A stretch of DNA of 64,000 nt from positions 1,364,001 through 1,428,000 of the forward strand of contig NZ_CP082161.1 in assembly GCF_023101665.1 (NCBI RefSeq), given 5' to 3'. Positions 7,871 to 41,412 of this stretch are shown here, piece after piece (positions within the stretch are counted from its first letter, which is position 1; every line of letters starts with the position of its first letter). This DNA is from Bradyrhizobium sp. 195. Lineage in GTDB: Bacteria; Pseudomonadota; Alphaproteobacteria; Rhizobiales; Xanthobacteraceae. The notes below the pieces were generated by a model, which was given only the letters and a program-made list of their open reading frames with translations, was not told the DNA's origin and ran no database searches. The position numbers were made by a program, and so were the translations under genes.

Positions 7871-9298
7871 ATGGACAAAATAATCGAAGCAAAACCAGTA
7901 TCAGTTTTGCGGCAGGGGGGCACGAGACGGGCGGCTGGCCAACACCTCACGATCGAGCTCAGCGAAACCGTGAAGCTCGCGTGGCCAATGGTGTTGACCC
8001 AGCTTGCGCAGGTCGCGATGATGACAACGGATCTTGCCTTTATCGGCCACATCGGGCCTCAGGCACTCGCCGCGGCCGCCCTGGCGGTCACGCTCTATCT
8101 CGTCAGCTTCACCTTTGGCGCGGGCCTGCTGGCGCCGATCGCACCGTTGGCCGCGCAGGCCTATGGGGCGGGGAATCTTGCTATGGTACAGCGCGCACTG
8201 CACACGGGGCTATGGGCGGCGCTGTTACTATCGTTCCCGATCATAGCGTTTGCGTTTTGCGGAGAGCAAATACTGCTCGCTTTCGGTCAGGCCCCAGACG
8301 CGGCGCGGCTCGCCAAGCAATATCTGTTCGGACTGGCCTTGGGCGTGGTGCCGGCGCTATGGCTGCAGGCCATCCGTAATTTCATGAGTGCGGTCAACCG
8401 GCCGGAGCCGATCTTGTGGATCACGCTGGCGGCAATCCCTCTCAACGCCGTGCTCGTGTATCTGCTGGTCTATGGCAAGTTCGGGCTGCCGCGGCTTGAG
8501 CTGTTCGGGGCGGCGCTTGCGAGCACGCTGGTGAACTGTGCGATGTTCCTGGCCGGTTTGTGGTTTGCCACAATGCGTCGTCCTTTCCGTGACTACCACG
8601 TGCTTGCAGATCTCTGCCAATTCGATTGGCCCTTCTTGCGCCAGCTGATCGTGATCGGGACTCCGATCTCAATCGCCTCCCTGATGCAGTACGGAGTTTT
8701 GTCGGCTGCCGCGCTCCTGGCGGGCCTGATCAGCACCAGTGCACTCGCTGCTCATCAGATTGCGATTCAGATCACCGTGATTACATCCATGATCGCTTTC
8801 GGCATCAGCATGGCGGCGGCCGTGCGCGTTGGCCATGCGGTCGGCCGCAACGACGGTCCCGGCATCAAGCGGGCAGGCCTGGTCGCGATGCTGCTCGGTA
8901 CCGTAATCGCTGCTTTGCTGATAATTGCGGTGATCGTCGCGCGTTTTGAGATCGCCGAGCTGTTTCTGGACAAATCGGTCGGAGATGCCGACGCGACGAT
9001 CGGACTGACTGCAGAGCTCCTTATGGTCGCCGCGAGCCTTTTTGTCACTGATGCCGCGCAGAGCATTGCGGCGGGCGGTCTGCGCGGCCTGAAGGACACT
9101 CAGGTGCCGCTTCTGTTCGTCTGCATTGCCTATTGGCTGATCGGCTTCTCACTTGGCTACGTGCTTGGTTTGAAGATCGGGCTTGGTGCGATTGGCATTT
9201 GGATTGGCTTGTCAATCGGGACAACCATCTATGCGGGGCTCCTCGTCCTGCGTTTCCAACTGCTGGCGAGCAGGCGTGCTCTCAGAGCCGTCACTTGA
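7871..9298 (+). CDS. MATE family efflux transporter
   Basis: A 475-residue membrane protein with about twelve hydrophobic segments in two similar halves, as in NorM/DinF exporters that use a Na+ or H+ gradient to expel cationic drugs or metabolites. Family marks are the first-helix region W-P-M-V-L-T-Q-L-A-Q and the P-L-A-A-Q-A-Y-G-A-G-N loop about residues 90-105, typical of MATE proteins. The length is standard and the frame is intact. It stands alone on this strand, about 500 bases below a NifA/sigma-54 promoter with only a ruined ferredoxin between, so it may have become a member of the NifA regulon; that is inference. The substrate is unknown. Confidence 0.88.
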   Translation: MDKIIEAKPVSVLRQGGTRRAAGQHLTIELSETVKLAWPMVLTQLAQVAMMTTDLAFIGHIGPQALAAAALAVTLYLVSFTFGAGLLAPIAPLAAQAYGAGNLAMVQRALHTGLWAALLLSFPIIAFAFCGEQILLAFGQAPDAARLAKQYLFGLALGVVPALWLQAIRNFMSAVNRPEPILWITLAAIPLNAVLVYLLVYGKFGLPRLELFGAALASTLVNCAMFLAGLWFATMRRPFRDYHVLADLCQFDWPFLRQLIVIGTPISIASLMQYGVLSAAALLAGLISTSALAAHQIAIQITVITSMIAFGISMAAAVRVGHAVGRNDGPGIKRAGLVAMLLGTVIAALLIIAVIVARFEIAELFLDKSVGDADATIGLTAELLMVAASLFVTDAAQSIAAGGLRGLKDTQVPLLFVCIAYWLIGFSLGYVLGLKIGLGAIGIWIGLSIGTTIYAGLLVLRFQLLASRRALRAVT

Positions 9299-9945: not shown

Positions 9946-9961
9946 TGTCCGATTTGTGACA
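9946..9961 (+). promoter_or_regulatory. NifA upstream activator sequence 2
   Basis: TGT-CCGA-T-TTGTG-ACA is a full match to TGT-N4-T-N5-ACA. It lies 84 bases upstream of a perfect -24/-12 element on the same strand, as in known nif and fix promoters. Confidence 0.85.
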
Positions 9962-10045
9962 GGACGCGCTCCTTGTCAGTTGCCAGCCCAGACGGCTTCT
10001 GCCGAGCGCCGTTTCTAGACAATGTCTATCAGGACAGATGAGGGA

Positions 10046-10061
10046 TGGCACAGACGTTGCT
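10046..10061 (+). promoter_or_regulatory. Sigma-54 (RpoN) -24/-12 promoter 2
   Basis: TGGCAC-AGACG-TTGCT matches the sigma-54 consensus at every core position. Transcription would start near 10073 and run toward the pentapeptide-repeat gene, leaving a leader of several hundred bases in which no ORF is convincing. Confidence 0.85.
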
Positions 10062-10563
10062 ATTGAAGTGCATCGTGAGGCCGACTGTTAGAAGCACGAA
10101 CTCGGGGTTAGCCGAAGTTGCGGCGTTTTTCGCTCGACTGTCGACGGGCTGATTAAGTACCACAAGGGTGAGGTCCTGGGAGATCAACTCCGTCTGCTAC
10201 AACTTGCTCAGGCTTTTCGTGCGTGTCGGTTCGTGATGGCACAATTCAAGAGGCCCGGTCAGGTAAGTTAAATCCTGATGAGTGATGATGCTTAAGTCCC
10301 AGAAAGAAATCCCAAGAGGCGCTCGCGGCAAACCTTGGCTACCTGAAACAGACGGGCCATGCAAAAGGCGCGCGGCAAACGAGACTAAGAAAGTGCGCTC
10401 GTGATCGAGAATGGAAACTGTCGACAATGACGCAAGCCATCGATACCAATAGCCACTTCAGCGTGCATGAGGAGCTAAGTATCCGTGCAACGACGATAAG
10501 CCAGTCCTCGGCAGATGGTGACTTTGTCCGCTACTGGAGCCGAAAAGTGATCGGGCGTCTGCG
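10062..10563. other. Long leader region after the sigma-54 promoter
   Basis: The ATG frame at 10427 starts MTQAIDTNSHFSV and runs as a different frame into the pentapeptide gene. It could be the true N-terminus of that protein separated by a frameshift, or a chance ORF. Nothing else is recognisable. Confidence 0.35.
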
Positions 10564-11913
10564 TTGGCTGCGGTGGAAAGGCGAACCGAGGACGCAATCA
10601 AGAAGACCGGCATCGGCCTGCGGCTATCTTCCGAGAACTTCACCGGTCATGATCTATCCGGATTTTCGTTGCGGCGATGCATCCTCAATCGTGCGCAACT
10701 CCACGGAGCGAAGCTGGATGGGGCCGATCTGTCGGAGGCCAACCTTGTTTGCCCCGGATTAGAGCGCGCAAGCTTCCGCGGAGCCAAGCTCGACTTTGCG
10801 TATATGCATGCTATTGCCGCGCAGGTCTGCAATTTCGATGATGCAAGTTTGCGCAATCTCATCGATGCAACCGGTAGCCTATTCCACGGGTGCAGCATGC
10901 GAAGGACCCGTTTCGACAACGCAGTCCTAAGTGGCGTGCTCTTTTATCAATGTGACGCGAGCCAGGCTGTCTTTGATGGCGCTGAACTGCAAGGATCGAC
11001 CATCAATGAATGCTACCTGCCTTGCTCGTCCTTTAATTTTGCCAAGTTAAACCAAGTTACGATGACGAAGGCGCATCTGACCGGCAGCTCGCTCTTGCAG
11101 TCAAGGGGGGAGTGTCTATCAATCCTGCGCCCCACTTCGGTCGATGATCTTGTCCTAGAGAACGCTCATCTTCCTTACTTCAGGCTTTCAAAGGCGAGCG
11201 GTCGCATCCTGGCCAAAGCGCTGAGCGCCCCCTTTGCGGATTTCAGCCTCTCAAATCTTGCCAAGGCAGAGCTCGAGGAGGCAGATCTATCGGAGGCGCG
11301 ACTTCTGTCCGTAAACCTCGCCAATGCCAACCTCGTCGGCGCAGTGTTGAACGGAGTATCAGTGCGTTCTTGCCAGCTCGATGGAGCTGATCTATCTCGC
11401 GCATCAGGGGAAGCCATTTCGATCTTCGAGAGCACGATGCGATCCGCCCAGTTGCGCGGCTTCCGTGCGCGCTGTGCGTTTATACGCGATTGCGATATCG
11501 ATGATTCAGATTTTTCGCAGGCGTACCTATATCGCTCAATGATTACCGGTGATCCTCCGCAGTCCATGGCTTTGAACCGCGCCAAGTTCGAGGGAGCCAA
11601 CCTTGTTCAGTCATATATTGCGGCAGGAATGACTGGCAGCAACCTGGAAGCGGCCCGTACGGCATACGTTCGAATGAATCAATCCTCGCTCTGCAAAACG
11701 AACTTGAGTGGAATTTCACCTTTCCAGGCAAGCTTTGTAAAAACAGACTTCTCGGATGCAATGATAACGACGTTTGAACCTCCGTTCTTTGCAGACAGAT
11801 GTCCTGGGCTCCAGGCTGCTTTGAAGGACGTGGAAGATCGGAAATCCGAACCTTCAGAATATCTGGCTGAGTTCTCATCGCTAATGAGGCGCGGTCGAGA
11901 AGGATCGACCTGA
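10564..11913 (+). CDS. Pentapeptide-repeat protein
   Basis: A protein of up to 449 residues built largely of A(D/N)LxX pentapeptide repeats, for example AKLDGADLSEANL near residue 49 and ADLSEARLLSVNLANANL near residue 240. Such proteins fold into a right-handed quadrilateral beta helix; some mimic DNA and bind gyrase, others are secreted effectors or scaffolds, and the family gives no single function. The last 40 residues lack repeats. The start is uncertain: the frame opens at about 10525 and offers only TTG 10564 or GTG 10573, while a better ATG at 10427 lies in another frame. It is the first sizeable gene after a perfect NifA/sigma-54 promoter and is followed closely by two same-strand ORFs, suggesting a nitrogen-fixation-regulated operon. 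Confidence 0.8.
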   Translation: MAAVERRTEDAIKKTGIGLRLSSENFTGHDLSGFSLRRCILNRAQLHGAKLDGADLSEANLVCPGLERASFRGAKLDFAYMHAIAAQVCNFDDASLRNLIDATGSLFHGCSMRRTRFDNAVLSGVLFYQCDASQAVFDGAELQGSTINECYLPCSSFNFAKLNQVTMTKAHLTGSSLLQSRGECLSILRPTSVDDLVLENAHLPYFRLSKASGRILAKALSAPFADFSLSNLAKAELEEADLSEARLLSVNLANANLVGAVLNGVSVRSCQLDGADLSRASGEAISIFESTMRSAQLRGFRARCAFIRDCDIDDSDFSQAYLYRSMITGDPPQSMALNRAKFEGANLVQSYIAAGMTGSNLEAARTAYVRMNQSSLCKTNLSGISPFQASFVKTDFSDAMITTFEPPFFADRCPGLQAALKDVEDRKSEPSEYLAEFSSLMRRGREGST

Positions 11914-11978
11914 TTGGGCTAAAGGACGCATGACGATCTGGGGCGCCTGTCATTAGAGAAGGAAAATGGAGAAGCGGG

Positions 11979-12113
11979 ATGCGTCCCCGTTGTGGCCGGA
12001 TTCCAGGCGCTCATGAGCTCATTCGCCGCGCGGTCGATGTGGCCGGTAGCGCTCGCCATGCGTTATGTCTAATCGAGCAGCAGGGCTGCGGGGCAATCAA
12101 CAAGACGGAGTAG
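11979..12113 (+). CDS. Small ORF, 44 residues, unknown
   Basis: ATG 11979 follows a purine-rich stretch (GAAGGAAAATGGAGAAG) and the frame runs to TAG at 12111, six bases before the start of the PanC-like gene. The translation MRPRCGRIPGAHELIRRAV... has no family I know. Position and spacing favour a real small gene in the operon, or else a translational coupler. It could also be a chance frame. Confidence 0.35.
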   Translation: MRPRCGRIPGAHELIRRAVDVAGSARHALCLIEQQGCGAINKTE

Positions 12114-12118
12114 GAAAC

Positions 12119-13030
12119 ATGCATCTAGCGTCTCTTTCAGCTGGCAAGACCTTCATTACGGACGTAGCAAGAAGAGGTCAAACTATCGGCACAGTACACA
12201 CTTTAGGAGCGTTGCATCTGGGCCACGCTGAGTTAATCAGAAGGGCCGCAGCCGAGAACGATGTGGCCATTGTCACAGTGTATCCGAACAAAATTCAGCT
12301 TAGCCCAGGTCCTGAGTACGAGTTCAATTTGGAGGATGACATTGCGCTTGCGCTGGGAGCGGGCGCTTCTGCTGTGATTTCAACGAGCGACGCGGAGATG
12401 TTTCCGCCGGGATATCGAACGTTTGTGTCTCAAGGGGATTATCCGCTGCGTGCGAACGGGCCTCATGGGCTCCTCAAGGAAGGTGTCACCGGATGCATCC
12501 GCTGGATTTGTTTTGCGCGACCAACTCGCAGCTATTTCGATTTAAAGGATATTGGACAGGCCCTTCTCGTGAGGCGAGCGGTCGCGGACCTGCTTCTTGA
12601 TTGCGAGATACGATTTGTGCCGACAGTACGATACAAGAACGGAGTGCCTATTTCGTCGCGTTTGCGACACTTCGATCGTTCCGAGCTGGACGAGCTTTCA
12701 TCGCTCTTCATGGCGCTGGACCACTTGAGAAAAGAGGCCGCTCGCGGAGTGTCTTGCGCCCAAGACCTGATAGACTCGGCAAGACCGCTGATCAAATTCC
12801 GACGGTTTGAATTTGAATCTCTTCGCATTGTTGGCGCGGACCGCTTTGAAGATCAGAAGCAGATCGAGCTTCCCTTTATAATCAGTGGAGTCGCCCTCGG
12901 TCGCGGCCTCAGAGTGTCTGAGAGTATCTTTGTACCGGATCAAGATACACTTTTGCATGGTCCTGCTGATATATGGATCGATTTGCCCGCGGAGTGGGAG
13001 TCTGGCGATCGCGCACAGTCGCGGGCTTGA
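12119..13030 (+). CDS. Divergent pantoate-beta-alanine ligase-like protein (PanC family)
   Basis: A 303-residue protein aligned by eye with PanC, which joins pantoate and beta-alanine with ATP to make pantothenate. The HIGH-type motif reads LGALHLGHAELIRRAAAEND (about residues 29-48). The later nucleotide-binding region reads FDLKDIGQALLVRRAVADL, followed by VPTVR and an SSRLR segment in place of the usual SSRN. The FVNPxQF substrate motif of true PanC is replaced by VYPNKIQL, so the substrate may differ. ATG 12119 is chosen over ATG 12065 because of the adjacent AGTAGGAAAC. It sits 205 bases below the pentapeptide gene, same strand, likely under the same NifA/sigma-54 promoter. No panB or panD is nearby. 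Confidence 0.75.
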   Translation: MHLASLSAGKTFITDVARRGQTIGTVHTLGALHLGHAELIRRAAAENDVAIVTVYPNKIQLSPGPEYEFNLEDDIALALGAGASAVISTSDAEMFPPGYRTFVSQGDYPLRANGPHGLLKEGVTGCIRWICFARPTRSYFDLKDIGQALLVRRAVADLLLDCEIRFVPTVRYKNGVPISSRLRHFDRSELDELSSLFMALDHLRKEAARGVSCAQDLIDSARPLIKFRRFEFESLRIVGADRFEDQKQIELPFIISGVALGRGLRVSESIFVPDQDTLLHGPADIWIDLPAEWESGDRAQSRA

Positions 13031-14270: not shown

Positions 14271-16022
14271 AGTACTCGTGTGCCTACCGGTCGCCCCGGC
14301 TCGGAAACATGCCGATGTCACTGTGAGGAGCACCCATCCGAACAACAATCGATGGGCTTGAATCGGCCGTAGCGTCAGGTTGTACAACACGACAACGGCA
14401 TATCCGCGAAGCATTGGCCAATGAAACAAGCCTCTCTCTGTCTTGTACTATATTCTGTTTTCGGTTGCTTGGGCTGAATGAGATTTCGCTCGCGGACTCA
14501 ACGCGGCGCTACGATTGCGCCACAAGCGGCACCGATGGAGAGCCGACAGGCGATCGGAATGGGTGCATCATTGTCAGCCTTCAATACACCTGCCGCGTTG
14601 CCGATGGTCTGTTGAAGGACGCGGGGTAAAGTCGGAGCGCGCGTTCCGAAAAAGGACACAGACGATGTCAGAAGTCTTATGGCGGGAGGATGGGGGGATC
14701 AAACTGGCTGGTTCATCGCCGAGGGGCAGCGGATCGGTCCGAAGCACTGCACGTTGGAAGGCCAGGAGCTGGTTGCCTGCACCTCTGATGTTCGGCTCAT
14801 TCACCAGTCCAGCGCAGTGGTGGAATGTCGCCTGACGCTGAAAACGAACATGAACAGCTGAATCGGCTTCGCTGTACTGCGGATTAGAGGACGGGCAAGA
14901 GCCGCATACGAGGTTTCGACGCGGATAACCAGTGACCTGCCACTTTTTGGCGATATGTGGCCTGCAATTCCAGTGAGGCACCCATGGAATGGTTAAGTGG
15001 AGCTTGCACGCGATGGCGCGCAATTGGCGAATGCGGCAAGCATTCGTGAGAAAGAATTAAATTCGACATAGCACGCGCATGGAAGTCGAGACTGATTAGC
15101 TCTACTTGGAGTGTGTTGGGGGCACGAGTCCCTCCGCTAAGGCATTGTCATTGGCGGTGCTTGGCCGGCTTTTCGAGAAGAGACATGTCACGGCGCTCAC
15201 CGTATCGTGACATTCATTGCGAGCGGATGCCCGCCAAGTCGCCATAAGTAATCCAATCCGCTATATTTGGCGGCGATGTTGATGTTCTAGTTATTAAACA
15301 GATCCCAGTTCACGTTGCACCGTTCTTTTGGAAAGCGTATCCCGAAAAACGGGTGATATAGCCCGTTGTTAAACCGCAGCGGGAATTGTTATCGCGCGAG
15401 ATGACATCGATCTTCTGCTTCGCGATGCGCACCTGCTCCGTATGTGACAGGCGAATGAAACCGGCACAAATCGATTTGGTTATAACGCTTAAATCGCATG
15501 TTGAATTCTACATAACTTATGGTAGAGCTCCTGCTTTCGCGCCGATTGATTAAGACCGCGAGTTATCCGTTTCGTCCCTACAACCTCGATTGTACCTGTT
15601 GCGGACGCGTGAGGAATCACTTTCCTAAGAATATCTTCAAGCTTGGTTCGCGGACAAAACGAACATTTCTCATCGTCGAAAAGAAAGCTGGTTTCGTTTC
15701 ATGGACTGGACATCGATTGATAGTATGATTGCGATGTAAGAACGAGGTAATTGATCATGTTGCACGTCGATCCCGGCACCATTGCCCGCCGACTTCGTCG
15801 TCTGATCAGAACCGATGCAAGACTCGGGGCTGTACGCGACTGAGCAGGTCACACGATGGTCGTGCTCCGTAGCCGACCACCGGTTTTGGCCTTTTGTGGC
15901 GGCTGCTGCGGCACATTGCGGCCGAGTATGGTGCATCACCAGACCGACTTCGTTGGCTTCTGTCGTTAGTCCCGCGACCAAGTTATTACGCAACTTTGTT
16001 TAGGCATCACGATAGTGAGAGA
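14271..16022. other. Gene-poor region
   Basis: About 1.75 kb with only short incoherent frames. The part from 14680 to 14861 gives a 60-residue frame ending KTNMNS that I cannot place. The AT-richer stretch 15440-15500 weakly recalls the AATCGATT core of a nod box but lacks its ATC-N9-GAT pattern. Confidence 0.4.
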
Positions 16023-16928
16023 ATGAGCATGAGTAACATGACGGATAGCATTATCCCGCGAGCGGATATCGTCAAATCCGCGGCCCGGCTGGGTGCCGAG
16101 ATCAAGAACATCAGGCTATCGGACGAATTGTCCGACGAGGTCATCCGGGCCATTAGCCAGTTACTCCTCGAGCACAAGGTCGTCTTCTTCCGTGATCAGG
16201 GACATCTCGATGATTTCGAACAGCAGCGCTTTGCCTACAAGCTCGGCTCGCTGATAACGCGTACGACCAAGCAGGCATCGATCCTGGGAATGGCGCCGGA
16301 TCGTCGGAGCGGTCGTGCCGACCAGATGCATACGGATGTCGGTGACGCATGTCCGAAGATCTCGGTGCTGCGCGGCGTCGTGATCCCGCCTGATGACCGT
16401 GACACAGTTTGGTCAAGCACTGCGGCCGCATATCTTGATCTTCCGGAGGCGCTGCGGATGCTGGCCGACCACCTCTTGGCGGTACACTGCAGCGCTTATG
16501 ATTACATCGTGAGAAGGCACTCCGCCGAGACGGACGCAAAGCAATTTGACGATGTCTTCACCGGAAGCATCTGCGAAACCGTGTGTCCCGTTGTTCGCAT
16601 CCATCCAGAGACGCGCGAGCGCTTGCTCGTGCTCGGAGATTCCGTGCAGAACTTCGTTGGCCTCGAAAAATATGTTAGCCAAAAGCTGTTTGAGCGCCTT
16701 CAATCCTACCTCACCTCGCCCGAGAATACCGTAAGATGGAATTGGAAATCGGGCGACGTTGTAATCTGGGATAACCGGGCGACCGAGCGCTACGCCATCA
16801 AGGAAGCCAGTGACCGAGATCAGCTGGAGAGGCGTACCGCTATCGGTGGCGGTGTGCCGCTCAGTATCGTTGGTCCTCGCAGCTTGGCGCGCACCAAGTC
16901 GAAGCCGCAGGCGGACAAGGCTGCCTAG
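16023..16928 (+). CDS. TauD/TfdA-family dioxygenase-like protein lacking the distal His
   Basis: A 301-residue protein of the 2-oxoglutarate/Fe(II) dioxygenase family that hydroxylates small acids such as taurine. The N-terminal part (RLGAEIKNIRLSDELSDE) and the HKVVFFRDQ segment near residue 50 are typical. The first iron ligands are present as H-T-D in QMHTDVGDA near residue 102. The distal ligand, normally His in W-D-N-R-x-T-x-H, is Arg here: WDNRATERYAI, codon CGC at 16788-16790. The co-substrate-side R-R pair further on is kept. Loss of one facial-triad ligand usually abolishes normal activity, so the protein may be inactive or changed in role. ATG 16023 is chosen because the family N-terminus begins there. 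A second, broken member lies at 26 kb. Confidence 0.82.
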   Translation: MSMSNMTDSIIPRADIVKSAARLGAEIKNIRLSDELSDEVIRAISQLLLEHKVVFFRDQGHLDDFEQQRFAYKLGSLITRTTKQASILGMAPDRRSGRADQMHTDVGDACPKISVLRGVVIPPDDRDTVWSSTAAAYLDLPEALRMLADHLLAVHCSAYDYIVRRHSAETDAKQFDDVFTGSICETVCPVVRIHPETRERLLVLGDSVQNFVGLEKYVSQKLFERLQSYLTSPENTVRWNWKSGDVVIWDNRATERYAIKEASDRDQLERRTAIGGGVPLSIVGPRSLARTKSKPQADKAA

Positions 16929-39320: not shown

Positions 39321-40622
39321 ATGAACACCGATGCTTTCGCGGCTCATGAGTCTAACGTTCGTCGCTATGGGCGGTCCTTTCCGACAGTCTTTACAAAGGC
39401 TCTCGGAGCGACAATCTGGGATGAAGCCGGCAAGCCCTATATCGATTTTCTTGTAGGATCCGGCGCACTGAACTACGGACACAACAATCCGAATATTCTT
39501 GCACCAGCAATTGATTATCTCGCCGGTGGGAACATTCTGTTGTCGCTTGATATGTATACAGCGGCAAAACGTGAATTCATTGAAGTGTTTGTCGACTCAA
39601 TACTGAAACCTAAGGGGCTCTCCTACAAAATGCAATTTCCTGGGCCGACCGGCACCAATGCTAACGAAGCTGCGCTTGCACTAGCGCGAAAATATACAGG
39701 CCGCTCGAGTGTCATGGCATTTACAAATGCATTCCACGGCATGTCGCTCGGCTCTCTGGCTATATCGGGTTCAGCGTCGACCAAGAAATTAGGGGGCGTT
39801 GCTCGTCACGACGTGATCCGTGTTCCCTACGACGGCTATCCGAACGGAGCTTTCGATTCCGCGAGCTATATCGACTACGTACTGGGCGACCCGGGGAGCG
39901 GCATAGAAAAACCCGCCGCAATCATTCTGGAGACCATCCAGGCAGAGGGCGGCATGAACACCGCCTCCGCAGCTTGGCTTAGACAAATCCAGCGTGTTTG
40001 CCGTAAACACGGTGTTGTTTTGATCGTCGACGACATTCAGGCAGGTGCTGGACGAACCGGCGAGTTCTTCTCATTCGAGTTCGCTAGAATCGAACCGGAC
40101 ATCGTCTGCCTTTCGAAGTCCTTAAGCGGAGCAGGCAATCCGCTCTCCATTGTTCTGATTCGTCCCGAAATTGACGTATGGCATCCAGGAGAACATAGCG
40201 GAACCTTTAGGGGCAATAATCTCGCGTTCGTGACTGCAGGAGCGATGTGCAAAATGTGGTCCGACAAGCAGTTTACGGCAAGCGTCGAGCGGACGGCCGT
40301 GAGATTGCAAGGACATCTTGATCACTTACTTGCGAAGTTTCCAGGGTGCATCGAAGAAAAGCGCGGCCGCGGTCTGATGGCCGGCCTCAAGTGCCGCTCA
40401 CAGGCAATTGTCGACCGTGTGCACGATGCAGCCTTCGGCAACGGCCTGCTGATCGAATCGTCAGGGCCGAATCGCGACGTCATTAAAGTCCTTCCGCCGA
40501 TAACTATCACCGACGACGATCTCGATCGTGGCATCGCCATCCTCAATCAAGCACTACAGGAGCAAGCCAATGGTAACTGCCCAGACATCTCAAACACCAG
40601 CGATCTCGCCTCTTACGATTAA
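39321..40622 (+). CDS. EctB-like diaminobutyrate-2-oxoglutarate transaminase
   Basis: A 433-residue PLP class-III aminotransferase that would make L-2,4-diaminobutyrate from aspartate semialdehyde. EctB-type segments are QFPGPTGTNANEAALALARK (about residues 107-126), AFTNAFHGMSLGSLAISG, VPYDGYPN and VLIVDDIQAGAGRTGEFF; the PLP lysine lies in CLSKSLSGAGNP near residue 271, followed by HSGTFRGNNLAFVTA. The length agrees with EctB. No ectA or ectC accompanies it. Instead a 2-oxoglutarate dioxygenase gene overlaps its 3' end by 53 bases, so this is not an ectoine operon. The amino-group product may be further hydroxylated. Confidence 0.88.
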   Translation: MNTDAFAAHESNVRRYGRSFPTVFTKALGATIWDEAGKPYIDFLVGSGALNYGHNNPNILAPAIDYLAGGNILLSLDMYTAAKREFIEVFVDSILKPKGLSYKMQFPGPTGTNANEAALALARKYTGRSSVMAFTNAFHGMSLGSLAISGSASTKKLGGVARHDVIRVPYDGYPNGAFDSASYIDYVLGDPGSGIEKPAAIILETIQAEGGMNTASAAWLRQIQRVCRKHGVVLIVDDIQAGAGRTGEFFSFEFARIEPDIVCLSKSLSGAGNPLSIVLIRPEIDVWHPGEHSGTFRGNNLAFVTAGAMCKMWSDKQFTASVERTAVRLQGHLDHLLAKFPGCIEEKRGRGLMAGLKCRSQAIVDRVHDAAFGNGLLIESSGPNRDVIKVLPPITITDDDLDRGIAILNQALQEQANGNCPDISNTSDLASYD

Positions 40623-41412
40623 AGAACGAACCGGCTCGATCAGCACTGCGGAGATCATTTCAGTCCTGAAGGGTGAGACCACCGGACTGCACATTAGACA
40701 AGCCTTCAGTATCGAAGTAGCCGAAGAGATCACCGCGAACTTTGCACGCAATCCCGGCCTCAAAGAGCGCAAAGATGGCGTTCCCGGACAATATGTTGGC
40801 GCATCTCACTACAGGAAGGATGCTGCCACCTATTTCGCTGAGGCGGAAAATGCGCGACCGTTCGTCGACGCTCTTTTTGGCAATTTGGTTGATCCGGTCC
40901 GCGGATTATTCGACGCGCTCAAGCGCGAGCTTCACAATCAGGGCGTTGAATTGCGGCTCGCCCGCTCGGACCGCGGGCAGGCTAATATATGTCGCGCTAT
41001 CCGTTGGTCTGGTACGGGTATGTATGCTTTGGAGCCTCACGACGACGCCGCTCAAGTCCTATGTGCCGGGAAAGATTGTGAGTTACCGGCTGTGGCGAAC
41101 AACACTGTGGCAGCGCTCAACTTCTATCCCAGCATGGCCGAGCAAGGCGGGAATCTGCGGATCTGGAGCCATAAGCCGACAGTCACCGACCGAAAATCGC
41201 AGGGCGTGGAGACCAAAGGCTATCCCTATTCGACAACTTATCTCGAAGCCGTTCCTTGTCGCGACTTTCAGCTCAATGTCGGGGATATAGCTCTGATCGA
41301 CGGCGGTTTTGTTCACGGAGTCACCCGACAATCAGGGAACGGAAAGAGTCGCCTTCTGCTGAACTGCTTCCTCGGGTTTGCGCGGCCGGATCTTGTTCTC
41401 TGGTGGACCTGA
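40570..41412 (+). CDS. 2-Oxoglutarate/Fe(II)-dependent dioxygenase
   Basis: A 280-residue protein. An HxD pair in ALEPHDDAAQVLC (about residue 158) and a distal His in GGFVHGVTRQ (about residue 252) followed by S-R-L-L-L-N make the usual iron triad and 2-oxoglutarate Arg. The N-terminal third is specific to an unnamed group. ATG 40570, with AGGAG eight bases ahead, lies inside the end of the transaminase gene, showing translational coupling. The likely substrate is the product of that transaminase or a derivative, hence a hydroxylated diamino acid; this is inference. All catalytic residues are present, unlike in the TauD-like protein at 16 kb. Confidence 0.82.
   Translation: MVTAQTSQTPAISPLTIKERTGSISTAEIISVLKGETTGLHIRQAFSIEVAEEITANFARNPGLKERKDGVPGQYVGASHYRKDAATYFAEAENARPFVDALFGNLVDPVRGLFDALKRELHNQGVELRLARSDRGQANICRAIRWSGTGMYALEPHDDAAQVLCAGKDCELPAVANNTVAALNFYPSMAEQGGNLRIWSHKPTVTDRKSQGVETKGYPYSTTYLEAVPCRDFQLNVGDIALIDGGFVHGVTRQSGNGKSRLLLNCFLGFARPDLVLWWT

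Follow-up and report, generated by a model that had tools for sequence, protein, structure and literature searches.

The pantoate-beta-alanine ligase PanC has the catalytic residues His44, His47, Asn69, Gln72, Lys160 and Gln164 in M. tuberculosis numbering (PMC5772511). In the symbiosis island of Bradyrhizobium diazoefficiens USDA110, a protein similar to this ligase (blr1852; PMC4926349) is numbered between a pentapeptide protein (blr1851) and a cytochrome P450 (blr1853; PMC8632152). Table 3 of PMC4926349 gives log2 ratios (nifA mutant versus wild-type nodules) of -5.2, -4.7, -4.3 and -6.0 for blr1850, blr1851, blr1852 and blr1853, beside -5.3 for nifH and -5.4 for nifD, with no value for blr1850-1853 in its nifH column; a paper on the bacteroid proteome also includes blr1852 in one of its tables (PMC6320959). 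Here we describe the counterparts of blr1851 and blr1852 in a 64,000-nucleotide stretch of Bradyrhizobium sp. 195 (contig NZ_CP082161.1; hereafter the window), which lies in a 9.14-Mb genome (G000:C1:1364001-1428000) with nifH (1,182,435) on one side and nodC (1,678,435 and 1,692,233) on the other. Orthology with USDA110 rests on gene order, names and P0027, a B. diazoefficiens homologue (72–73% identity), not on the blr sequences.

We give a probability of about 0.55 to the reading that these genes form a NifA/sigma-54-controlled two-gene unit of nodulating Bradyrhizobium, in which a ligase and a beta-helix partner make a small amide, and which shares ancestry with natural-product clusters. 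The unit is real, conserved and NifA-driven, and its function is probably that of an amide ligase. The data show promoter conservation, linkage, co-occurrence, the predicted fold, the conserved catalytic residues, the changed pocket, purifying selection and the relatives in other phyla. NifA control is already known from the USDA110 counterparts. No report was found, in the literature searched, of the ligase subfamily, of its fixed pairing with the pentapeptide gene or of its connection with gene clusters of other phyla. The features are as follows.

9946..9961, + strand: NifA upstream activator site (UAS), TGTCCGATTTGTGACA, a match to TGT-N10-ACA, conserved across loci.
10046..10061, + strand: sigma-54 -24/-12 promoter, TGGCACAGACGTTGCT, with TGGCAC-N5-TTGC at 10046-10060, the sole exact match in the window.
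10062..10426, + strand: untranslated leader according to alignment and a small-ORF (open reading frame) scan, poorly conserved.
10427..11913, + strand: gene for a pentapeptide-repeat beta-helix protein (PF00805), with a broken frame whose long open part is 10564-11913.
11979..12113, + strand: 44-codon ORF, not conserved, taken as intergenic.
12119..13030, + strand: gene for a 303-residue adenylate-forming ligase with the PanC fold, from a divergent subfamily (PF02569 and predicted fold).

As expected of the NifA-sigma-54 regulon, the UAS lies upstream of a -24/-12 promoter in the window, with the -24 box beginning 100 bases after the first base of the UAS. A single UAS is at chance level (7 matches in the window against 7.2 expected), and about 0.004 exact -24/-12 matches are expected per 3.5-kb strand by a base-composition estimate. 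The two sites are significant because they are conserved across the Bradyrhizobium loci, of which 31 were read (the window and L007-L036) and 30 include the promoter region, the contig of L023 ending too early. The -24/-12 element is exact in 25 of the 30, has one mismatch in 3 (L024, L033 and L034) and is absent from 2 (L022 and L036); the UAS is exact in 23 of the 28 promoter-bearing loci, 75–114 bases upstream of the -24 box, and has one mismatch in the other 5. The original prediction, made from the letters of the window, had described a perfect NifA site and a perfect -24/-12 promoter, and both are borne out, their weight coming from conservation across the 30 loci. Loss of the transcript in a nifA mutant, which it had proposed as a check, is already published for blr1850-1853 (Table 3 of PMC4926349). 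In L022 (8072-9754) and L036 (7836-9512), which have lost the -24/-12 element, perhaps through a deletion, the frame of the upstream ABC permease extends into that of the pentapeptide gene; the same partial match is seen in G040, G193 and G135, in frames about 650 codons long.

Alignment and a small-ORF scan of 10 loci revealed no shared leader peptide or small gene between the promoter and the pentapeptide gene, and blr1850 of USDA110 may be an annotated ORF of the leader stretch. The 44-codon ORF was also compared in 28 other aligned loci: an ATG with an open frame is present only in the close relatives L008 and L009, in L007 the ATG is kept but the frame contains a stop, in L031 and L035 a GTG opens a frame that differs in sequence, and in the remaining 23 this position has no start codon or has a stop. 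A three-gene unit including this ORF was therefore rejected. Thus, of the three same-strand ORFs placed behind the promoter and interpreted as a possible symbiosis-specific ligation system with a putative pantoate- or beta-alanine-like amide as product, the pentapeptide gene and the PanC-type ligase persist as a NifA/sigma-54 symbiosis-linked unit, while the 44-codon ORF drops out as a component.

In each of the 31 loci, the pentapeptide gene precedes the PanC-like gene in the same orientation (as a partial copy in L023 and L024); the gap is 167–247 bases in 29 loci, 417 in L024 and 1200 in L011. The genus was surveyed in 242 genomes, drawn evenly out of a larger group, beside 14 control genomes. 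The PanC-like gene, counted as present at E at most 1e-60, occurs in 48 genomes and the pentapeptide gene in 49, namely the same 48 and G191 (Fisher p 3e-50, uncorrected for relatedness). nifH above the cut-off is found in 146 genomes, including all 48 carriers, and nodC in 126, including 46 carriers, and in none of the 14 controls (hypergeometric p 7e-13 and 3e-13, respectively, likewise uncorrected); nodC over the cut-off was not found in the carriers G092 and G210. For nifH, the cut-off was used alone because at a loose E of 0.001 its kin match 241 of the 242 genomes and all 14 controls; G127, G144 and G210 were scored from the E-value. The pair is thus an accessory of the symbiosis region, and roughly one in three nodC carriers (46/126) has it. 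On shared contigs, its distance to nifH is, for example, 51 kb in G185, 67 kb in G002, 80 kb in G005 and 163 kb in G010; it is about 193 kb in the window genome and about 730 kb in G141. Both genes look to be under purifying selection, with a median ratio of nonsynonymous to synonymous substitutions (dN/dS) of 0.127 and 0.112 (78 pairs from 13 of the 31 loci).

The nearest named relatives of the PanC-like protein are from Bradyrhizobium strains (87–91% identity). Its start codon is most likely at 12119, since homologues begin with MHL, which replaces the 12065 of the first reading. It matches PF02569 with 108.1 bits (cut-off 20.7), and the alignment upholds the predicted PanC-type ligase in which VYPNKIQL replaces [IV]FVNPxQF; likewise, VHTLG stands where PanC has VPTMG. 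The predicted structure has the PanC fold. Judged by motif spacing, the equivalents of the catalytic residues are His33, His36, Asn57, Gln60, Lys143 and Gln147, which are kept in 29–30 rows of a 30-row alignment (A2: the window and 29 of 95 protein-search hits, leaving out the canonical-motif hits P0088-P0095). The pocket lining differs from that of PanC (H for P, L for M, YPNK for FVNP, G-A/C/S for V-V and W for L), and these changes are nearly fixed across phyla in A2. The protein also has a C-terminal extension whose Trp286 is invariant in A2, and the variant subfamily occupies one side of a tree branch with 100% SH-aLRT support. Conservation of Gln60 and Gln147 would speak for a pantoate-like acid as substrate, and the changed lining would speak against pantoate itself.

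The ligase could instead be a bacteroid-specific pantothenate synthetase isozyme that raises the supply of vitamin B5 and coenzyme A during nitrogen fixation. This is the strongest of the alternatives and yet an unlikely one. It has on its side the predicted fold and catalytic residues as well as the NCBI and USDA110 annotations, which read pantoate--beta-alanine ligase or similar. However, the window protein reaches 105.7 bits with TIGR00018, the NCBIfam equivalog model for pantothenate synthetase (cut-off 212.75), and together with six other variant proteins spans 105–146 bits, whereas two canonical PanCs of the same genome reach 329.6 (L002) and 292 (L003), one of them being encoded in a panB-panC pair. 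The near fixation of the changed lining, the constant neighbourhood of the pentapeptide gene and the clustering of relatives with HisRS-like and HisZ-like genes (see below) also argue against an isozyme. Databases call the subfamily pantothenate synthetase, yet the seven members tested fall below the curated cut-off. The panB-panC pair of L002 (G000:C1:1797343), a second one, lies about 104 kb beyond nodC, and its PanC is canonical by the cut-off; that it might be NifA-driven was rejected, as no -24/-12 element with up to two mismatches occurs in about 570 bases upstream of panB.

The pentapeptide-repeat identity proposed earlier is supported by PF00805 (117.5 bits), but the original prediction had overlooked that the frame is broken and that the true start lies near 10427: compared with relatives, which have intact copies, the window gene has lost one base at about 10541-10546, either by a real mutation or through an assembly error. 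Strains of B. diazoefficiens are also told apart by a frameshift of one base within a pentapeptide-repeat gene on symbiosis island A (PMC11218460), and this gene is presumably the counterpart of that in the window. The same paper equates the pentapeptide protein YjbI with the truncated haemoglobin YjbI of B. subtilis, which we take as a shared name only. An AlphaFold model of the intact L013 relative (pLDDT 89.1) consists of a single continuous beta-helix from about residue 68 to 458, built of short repeating strands, with helical caps. Invariant polar residues include, in L013 numbering, His130, His156, Tyr176-Gln177, Asn196-Glu197, Arg351, Arg356 and Tyr371-Arg372, as well as GDPP 377-380, Tyr416, Arg418, Asn420-Gln421, Lys441 and Asp459-Arg460; these examples are from an alignment of 14 rows (10 Bradyrhizobium, 3 actinomycetes and one metagenome-assembled genome (MAG) of Polyangiaceae). 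Since such residues are more numerous than a scaffold needs, the protein is suggested to bind a ligand or a partner.

The pentapeptide proteins Qnr, MfpA and AlbG protect gyrase. The pair could accordingly be what is left of a resistance or toxin system, in which the pentapeptide protein shields a cellular target from a product of the PanC-like pathway and expression in symbiosis is incidental. The Foldseek neighbours of the L013 model are HetL, QnrB1, MfpA and AlbG, and in the clostridial locus L043 an S66 peptidase, together with a HisRS that passes the hisS cut-off, could serve self-immunity to a tRNA-synthetase inhibitor. Nevertheless, we think this origin improbable: the window frame 10564-11910 falls far short of the equivalog cut-offs for Qnr, MfpA and HetL (62.8 versus 240 bits for Qnr and 53.6 versus 360 for MfpA), the chains of Qnr, MfpA and HetL are about half as long as the model, whose TM-scores with the neighbours are low, the many polar residues that stay invariant across phyla suggest that a ligand is bound, and the genes are under NifA control. 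A defence system was also considered and rejected, as neither protein has a PADLOC match.

Outside Bradyrhizobium, where the closest relatives found are in clusters of actinomycetes, Polyangiaceae and Clostridia, 12 loci (L037-L048) were obtained, which together with 30 Bradyrhizobium loci made up a genome scan of 42 loci. These 12 encode HisZ-like proteins (12 loci), HisRS-like proteins (10; in L044 and L047 the contigs end before the expected place), PurD-like proteins (7), pentapeptide proteins (4; L037, L039, L040 and L041) and B12-binding radical SAM proteins (3). The HisRS-like proteins of L040 (366 bits), L043 (315) and L066 (340), the last from a Streptomyces plasmid, pass the hisS cut-off of 286.75, and the HisZ-like proteins of L040 and L043 are below both the hisS and hisZ cut-offs. 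A carboxylate-activating ligase recurs together with HisRS and HisZ paralogues, sometimes with a pentapeptide protein. In the clostridial loci L042-L048, from MAGs bearing names such as Lapin and Chicken, the gene row (S66 peptidase, membrane protein, HisZ-like, PanC-like, PurD-like and HisRS) looks like a biosynthetic cluster. Pentapeptide relatives with 37–52% identity occur in Tistlia, Thiodiazotropha, Acidobacteriota, Myxococcota and Streptomyces, and one relative (P0206) has a PurD C-domain hit beside its repeats. Only 2 of 385 Alphaproteobacteria genomes, both Bradyrhizobium, match the pentapeptide profile at a strict E of 1e-90; the family is not confined to Bradyrhizobium in this class, since Tistlia has a 52% relative. 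A phage origin was rejected because no PanC-like gene was confirmed in viral contigs; two pentapeptide relatives are present in viral contigs, where stretches of about 5 kb showed none of the other parts tested. The Embleya plasmids L068 and L069, with only the HisRS-like gene among the parts tested, were set aside as uninformative.

Based on these data, the two-gene unit may work as follows: i) the PanC-fold ATP-dependent ligase would form the acyl-adenylate of a (hydroxy-)acid that resembles pantoate but is distinct from it, ii) it would then join this to an amine, iii) the beta-helix protein, which looks ligand-binding, would be its partner as a scaffold, acceptor or cofactor-binding subunit, iv) the small amide would be made in nitrogen-fixing bacteroids, v) a neighbouring P450 would possibly oxidise it further in some lineages, and vi) the pair was probably recruited from a natural-product type cluster like those of actinomycetes and other bacteria. 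We infer the substrate change, the partnership, the amide product, the P450 role and the direction of transfer. That nodule bacteria may make a small amide follows from the position of the ligase relatives elsewhere in natural-product-like clusters. A more specific version, to which we assign somewhat less than even odds, is that bacteroids make a nodule-specific natural product, an acid-amine conjugate, by a two-protein engine taken from an antibiotic-like pathway that in other phyla includes HisRS paralogues and, in Clostridia, an immunity-type S66 peptidase. S66 peptidases are known for an immunity role from microcin C, and it may be speculated that the duplicated HisRS, with this peptidase in Clostridia, would fit self-immunity to a tRNA-synthetase inhibitor.

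Several observations weigh against the reading as an amide-making pair. First, pantoate may still be the substrate since Gln60 and Gln147 are kept, and the member in L011 has the canonical motif VPTMGALH alongside TVYPNKIQF. Second, the two proteins occur separately: seven clostridial loci and L038 have the ligase without the pentapeptide gene, and two Streptomyces plasmid stretches have the pentapeptide gene without a PanC-like gene. Third, the pathway cannot simply be equated with that of the actinomycetes, since the window genome lacks a clear second HisRS-like protein and a clear B12 radical SAM orthologue (best match 28%); its one HisRS-type match (36%) is taken as housekeeping, in a search that covered the HisRS and B12 radical SAM parts. 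Fourth, the P450 of blr1853 may be a separate unit since it has its own start site, mapped only in nodules, and its promoter is also active in free-living reporter cells (PMC4842269). Finally, the function is dispensable in places, since the pair is broken, partial or separated in some strains: the pentapeptide gene is frameshifted in the window strain, found as two parts in G106, G140 and G141, and of reduced length in L024, the PanC-like gene is split in L036 and only partly matched in G135 and G177, and in G177 both genes are partial and about 5 kb apart; some of these copies may be contig breaks. Such copies, and the 80 of 126 nodC genomes without a PanC-like match, could mean that the pair is a hitch-hiker of the symbiosis island, now unused and in decay, the least probable explanation in view of dN/dS values of about 0.1 in both genes, the retained promoter, the strong NifA-dependent expression in USDA110 (PMC4926349) and the listing of blr1852 in the bacteroid proteome table (PMC6320959).

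Among the neighbouring genes, a P450 is found downstream of the pair in 19 of the 31 loci, and that of L013 resembles the solanimycin P450 SolI (439 bits, cut-off 850). The window has no local P450, its genome having a 75% relative at C1:1756336. A possible accessory of the pair is the following gene.

15894..16928, + strand: TauD/TfdA-family dioxygenase, seen in the vicinity of the pair in the window and the closely related L007-L010 but in no other locus.

The flanks also contain genes for a luciferase-like monooxygenase (21/31 loci) and an SBP-5 transporter (25/31), mostly upstream of the promoter and on the other side in L011, which we treat as context. A MatE-family exporter gene (7871-9298) lies between ABC transporter genes and the NifA promoter, with clustered relatives, among the loci read, only in L007-L010. 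Elsewhere in the window (39321-41412), a class III aminotransferase adjoins a WelO5-like iron/2-oxoglutarate enzyme with the motif EPHDD, which we read as HxD, so that this enzyme is presumably a hydroxylase rather than a halogenase.

No function of the pair was found in the parts of the literature covered, which excludes Hauser et al. 2007 and Pessi et al. 2007. PMC3538637 does not mention pantothenate, panC or pentapeptide, and PMC4999443 does not mention pantoate, panC or pentapeptide; pantothenate in PMC6066989 is a medium vitamin only, and PMC6321122 lists a different ligase, Blr6152. Genes about as NifA-dependent as the nitrogenase genes in USDA110 nodules, to which the papers covered assign no role, mark a gap in knowledge of what bacteroids produce for or against the plant, and the pair is a candidate source of a nodule metabolite. 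The pair also ties a pentapeptide protein to an amide-ligase pathway present in several phyla; if bacteroids do make the nodule-specific natural product, this protein would take an active part in an enzyme complex instead of being a passive scaffold.

Compared with known systems, the PanC-like protein shares the predicted fold and the catalytic residues with PanC (TIGR00018) but differs from it in pocket lining, C-terminal extension, score below the cut-off and gene context. The clusters of the actinomycetes L037, L040 and L041 and of the Polyangiaceae L039 likewise have relatives of the pentapeptide protein (41–47% identity) and of the PanC-like protein (42–45%) in one stretch, but add HisRS-like, HisZ-like and B12-binding radical SAM proteins (the last in 3 of 4), a glycosyltransferase-2-like protein (3/4; by motifs without a Pfam hit in L041), a Ddl-like protein (2/4) and a PurD-like ligase (1/4); no HisRS, HisZ, B12 or PurD part was found in the Bradyrhizobium loci by tblastn. 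The clostridial operons L042-L048 share the PanC-like relative (37–44%) but have an S66 peptidase, a membrane protein, HisZ-like, PurD-like ATP-grasp and HisRS proteins, and no pentapeptide gene was found in their stretches. In the plasmid cluster of Streptomyces goshikiensis/Mg1 (L066 and L067, two read out of seven Streptomyces records found), a pentapeptide relative (44%) accompanies hisS, a HisZ-like gene and an adenylate-forming enzyme, but this enzyme is of class I and no PanC-like gene is present in the 33 kb read, with no match within 16 kb; L066 (4524-23986) also holds two aminotransferases, a methyltransferase and a DapH-like gene. In USDA110, the P450 has the next gene number, whereas the P450 of the window genome is 380 kb off and a TauD-type gene lies 3 kb downstream of the pair; the order, a pentapeptide gene followed by a PanC-like gene, is the same, with NifA dependence in nodules published for USDA110 (Table 3 of PMC4926349).

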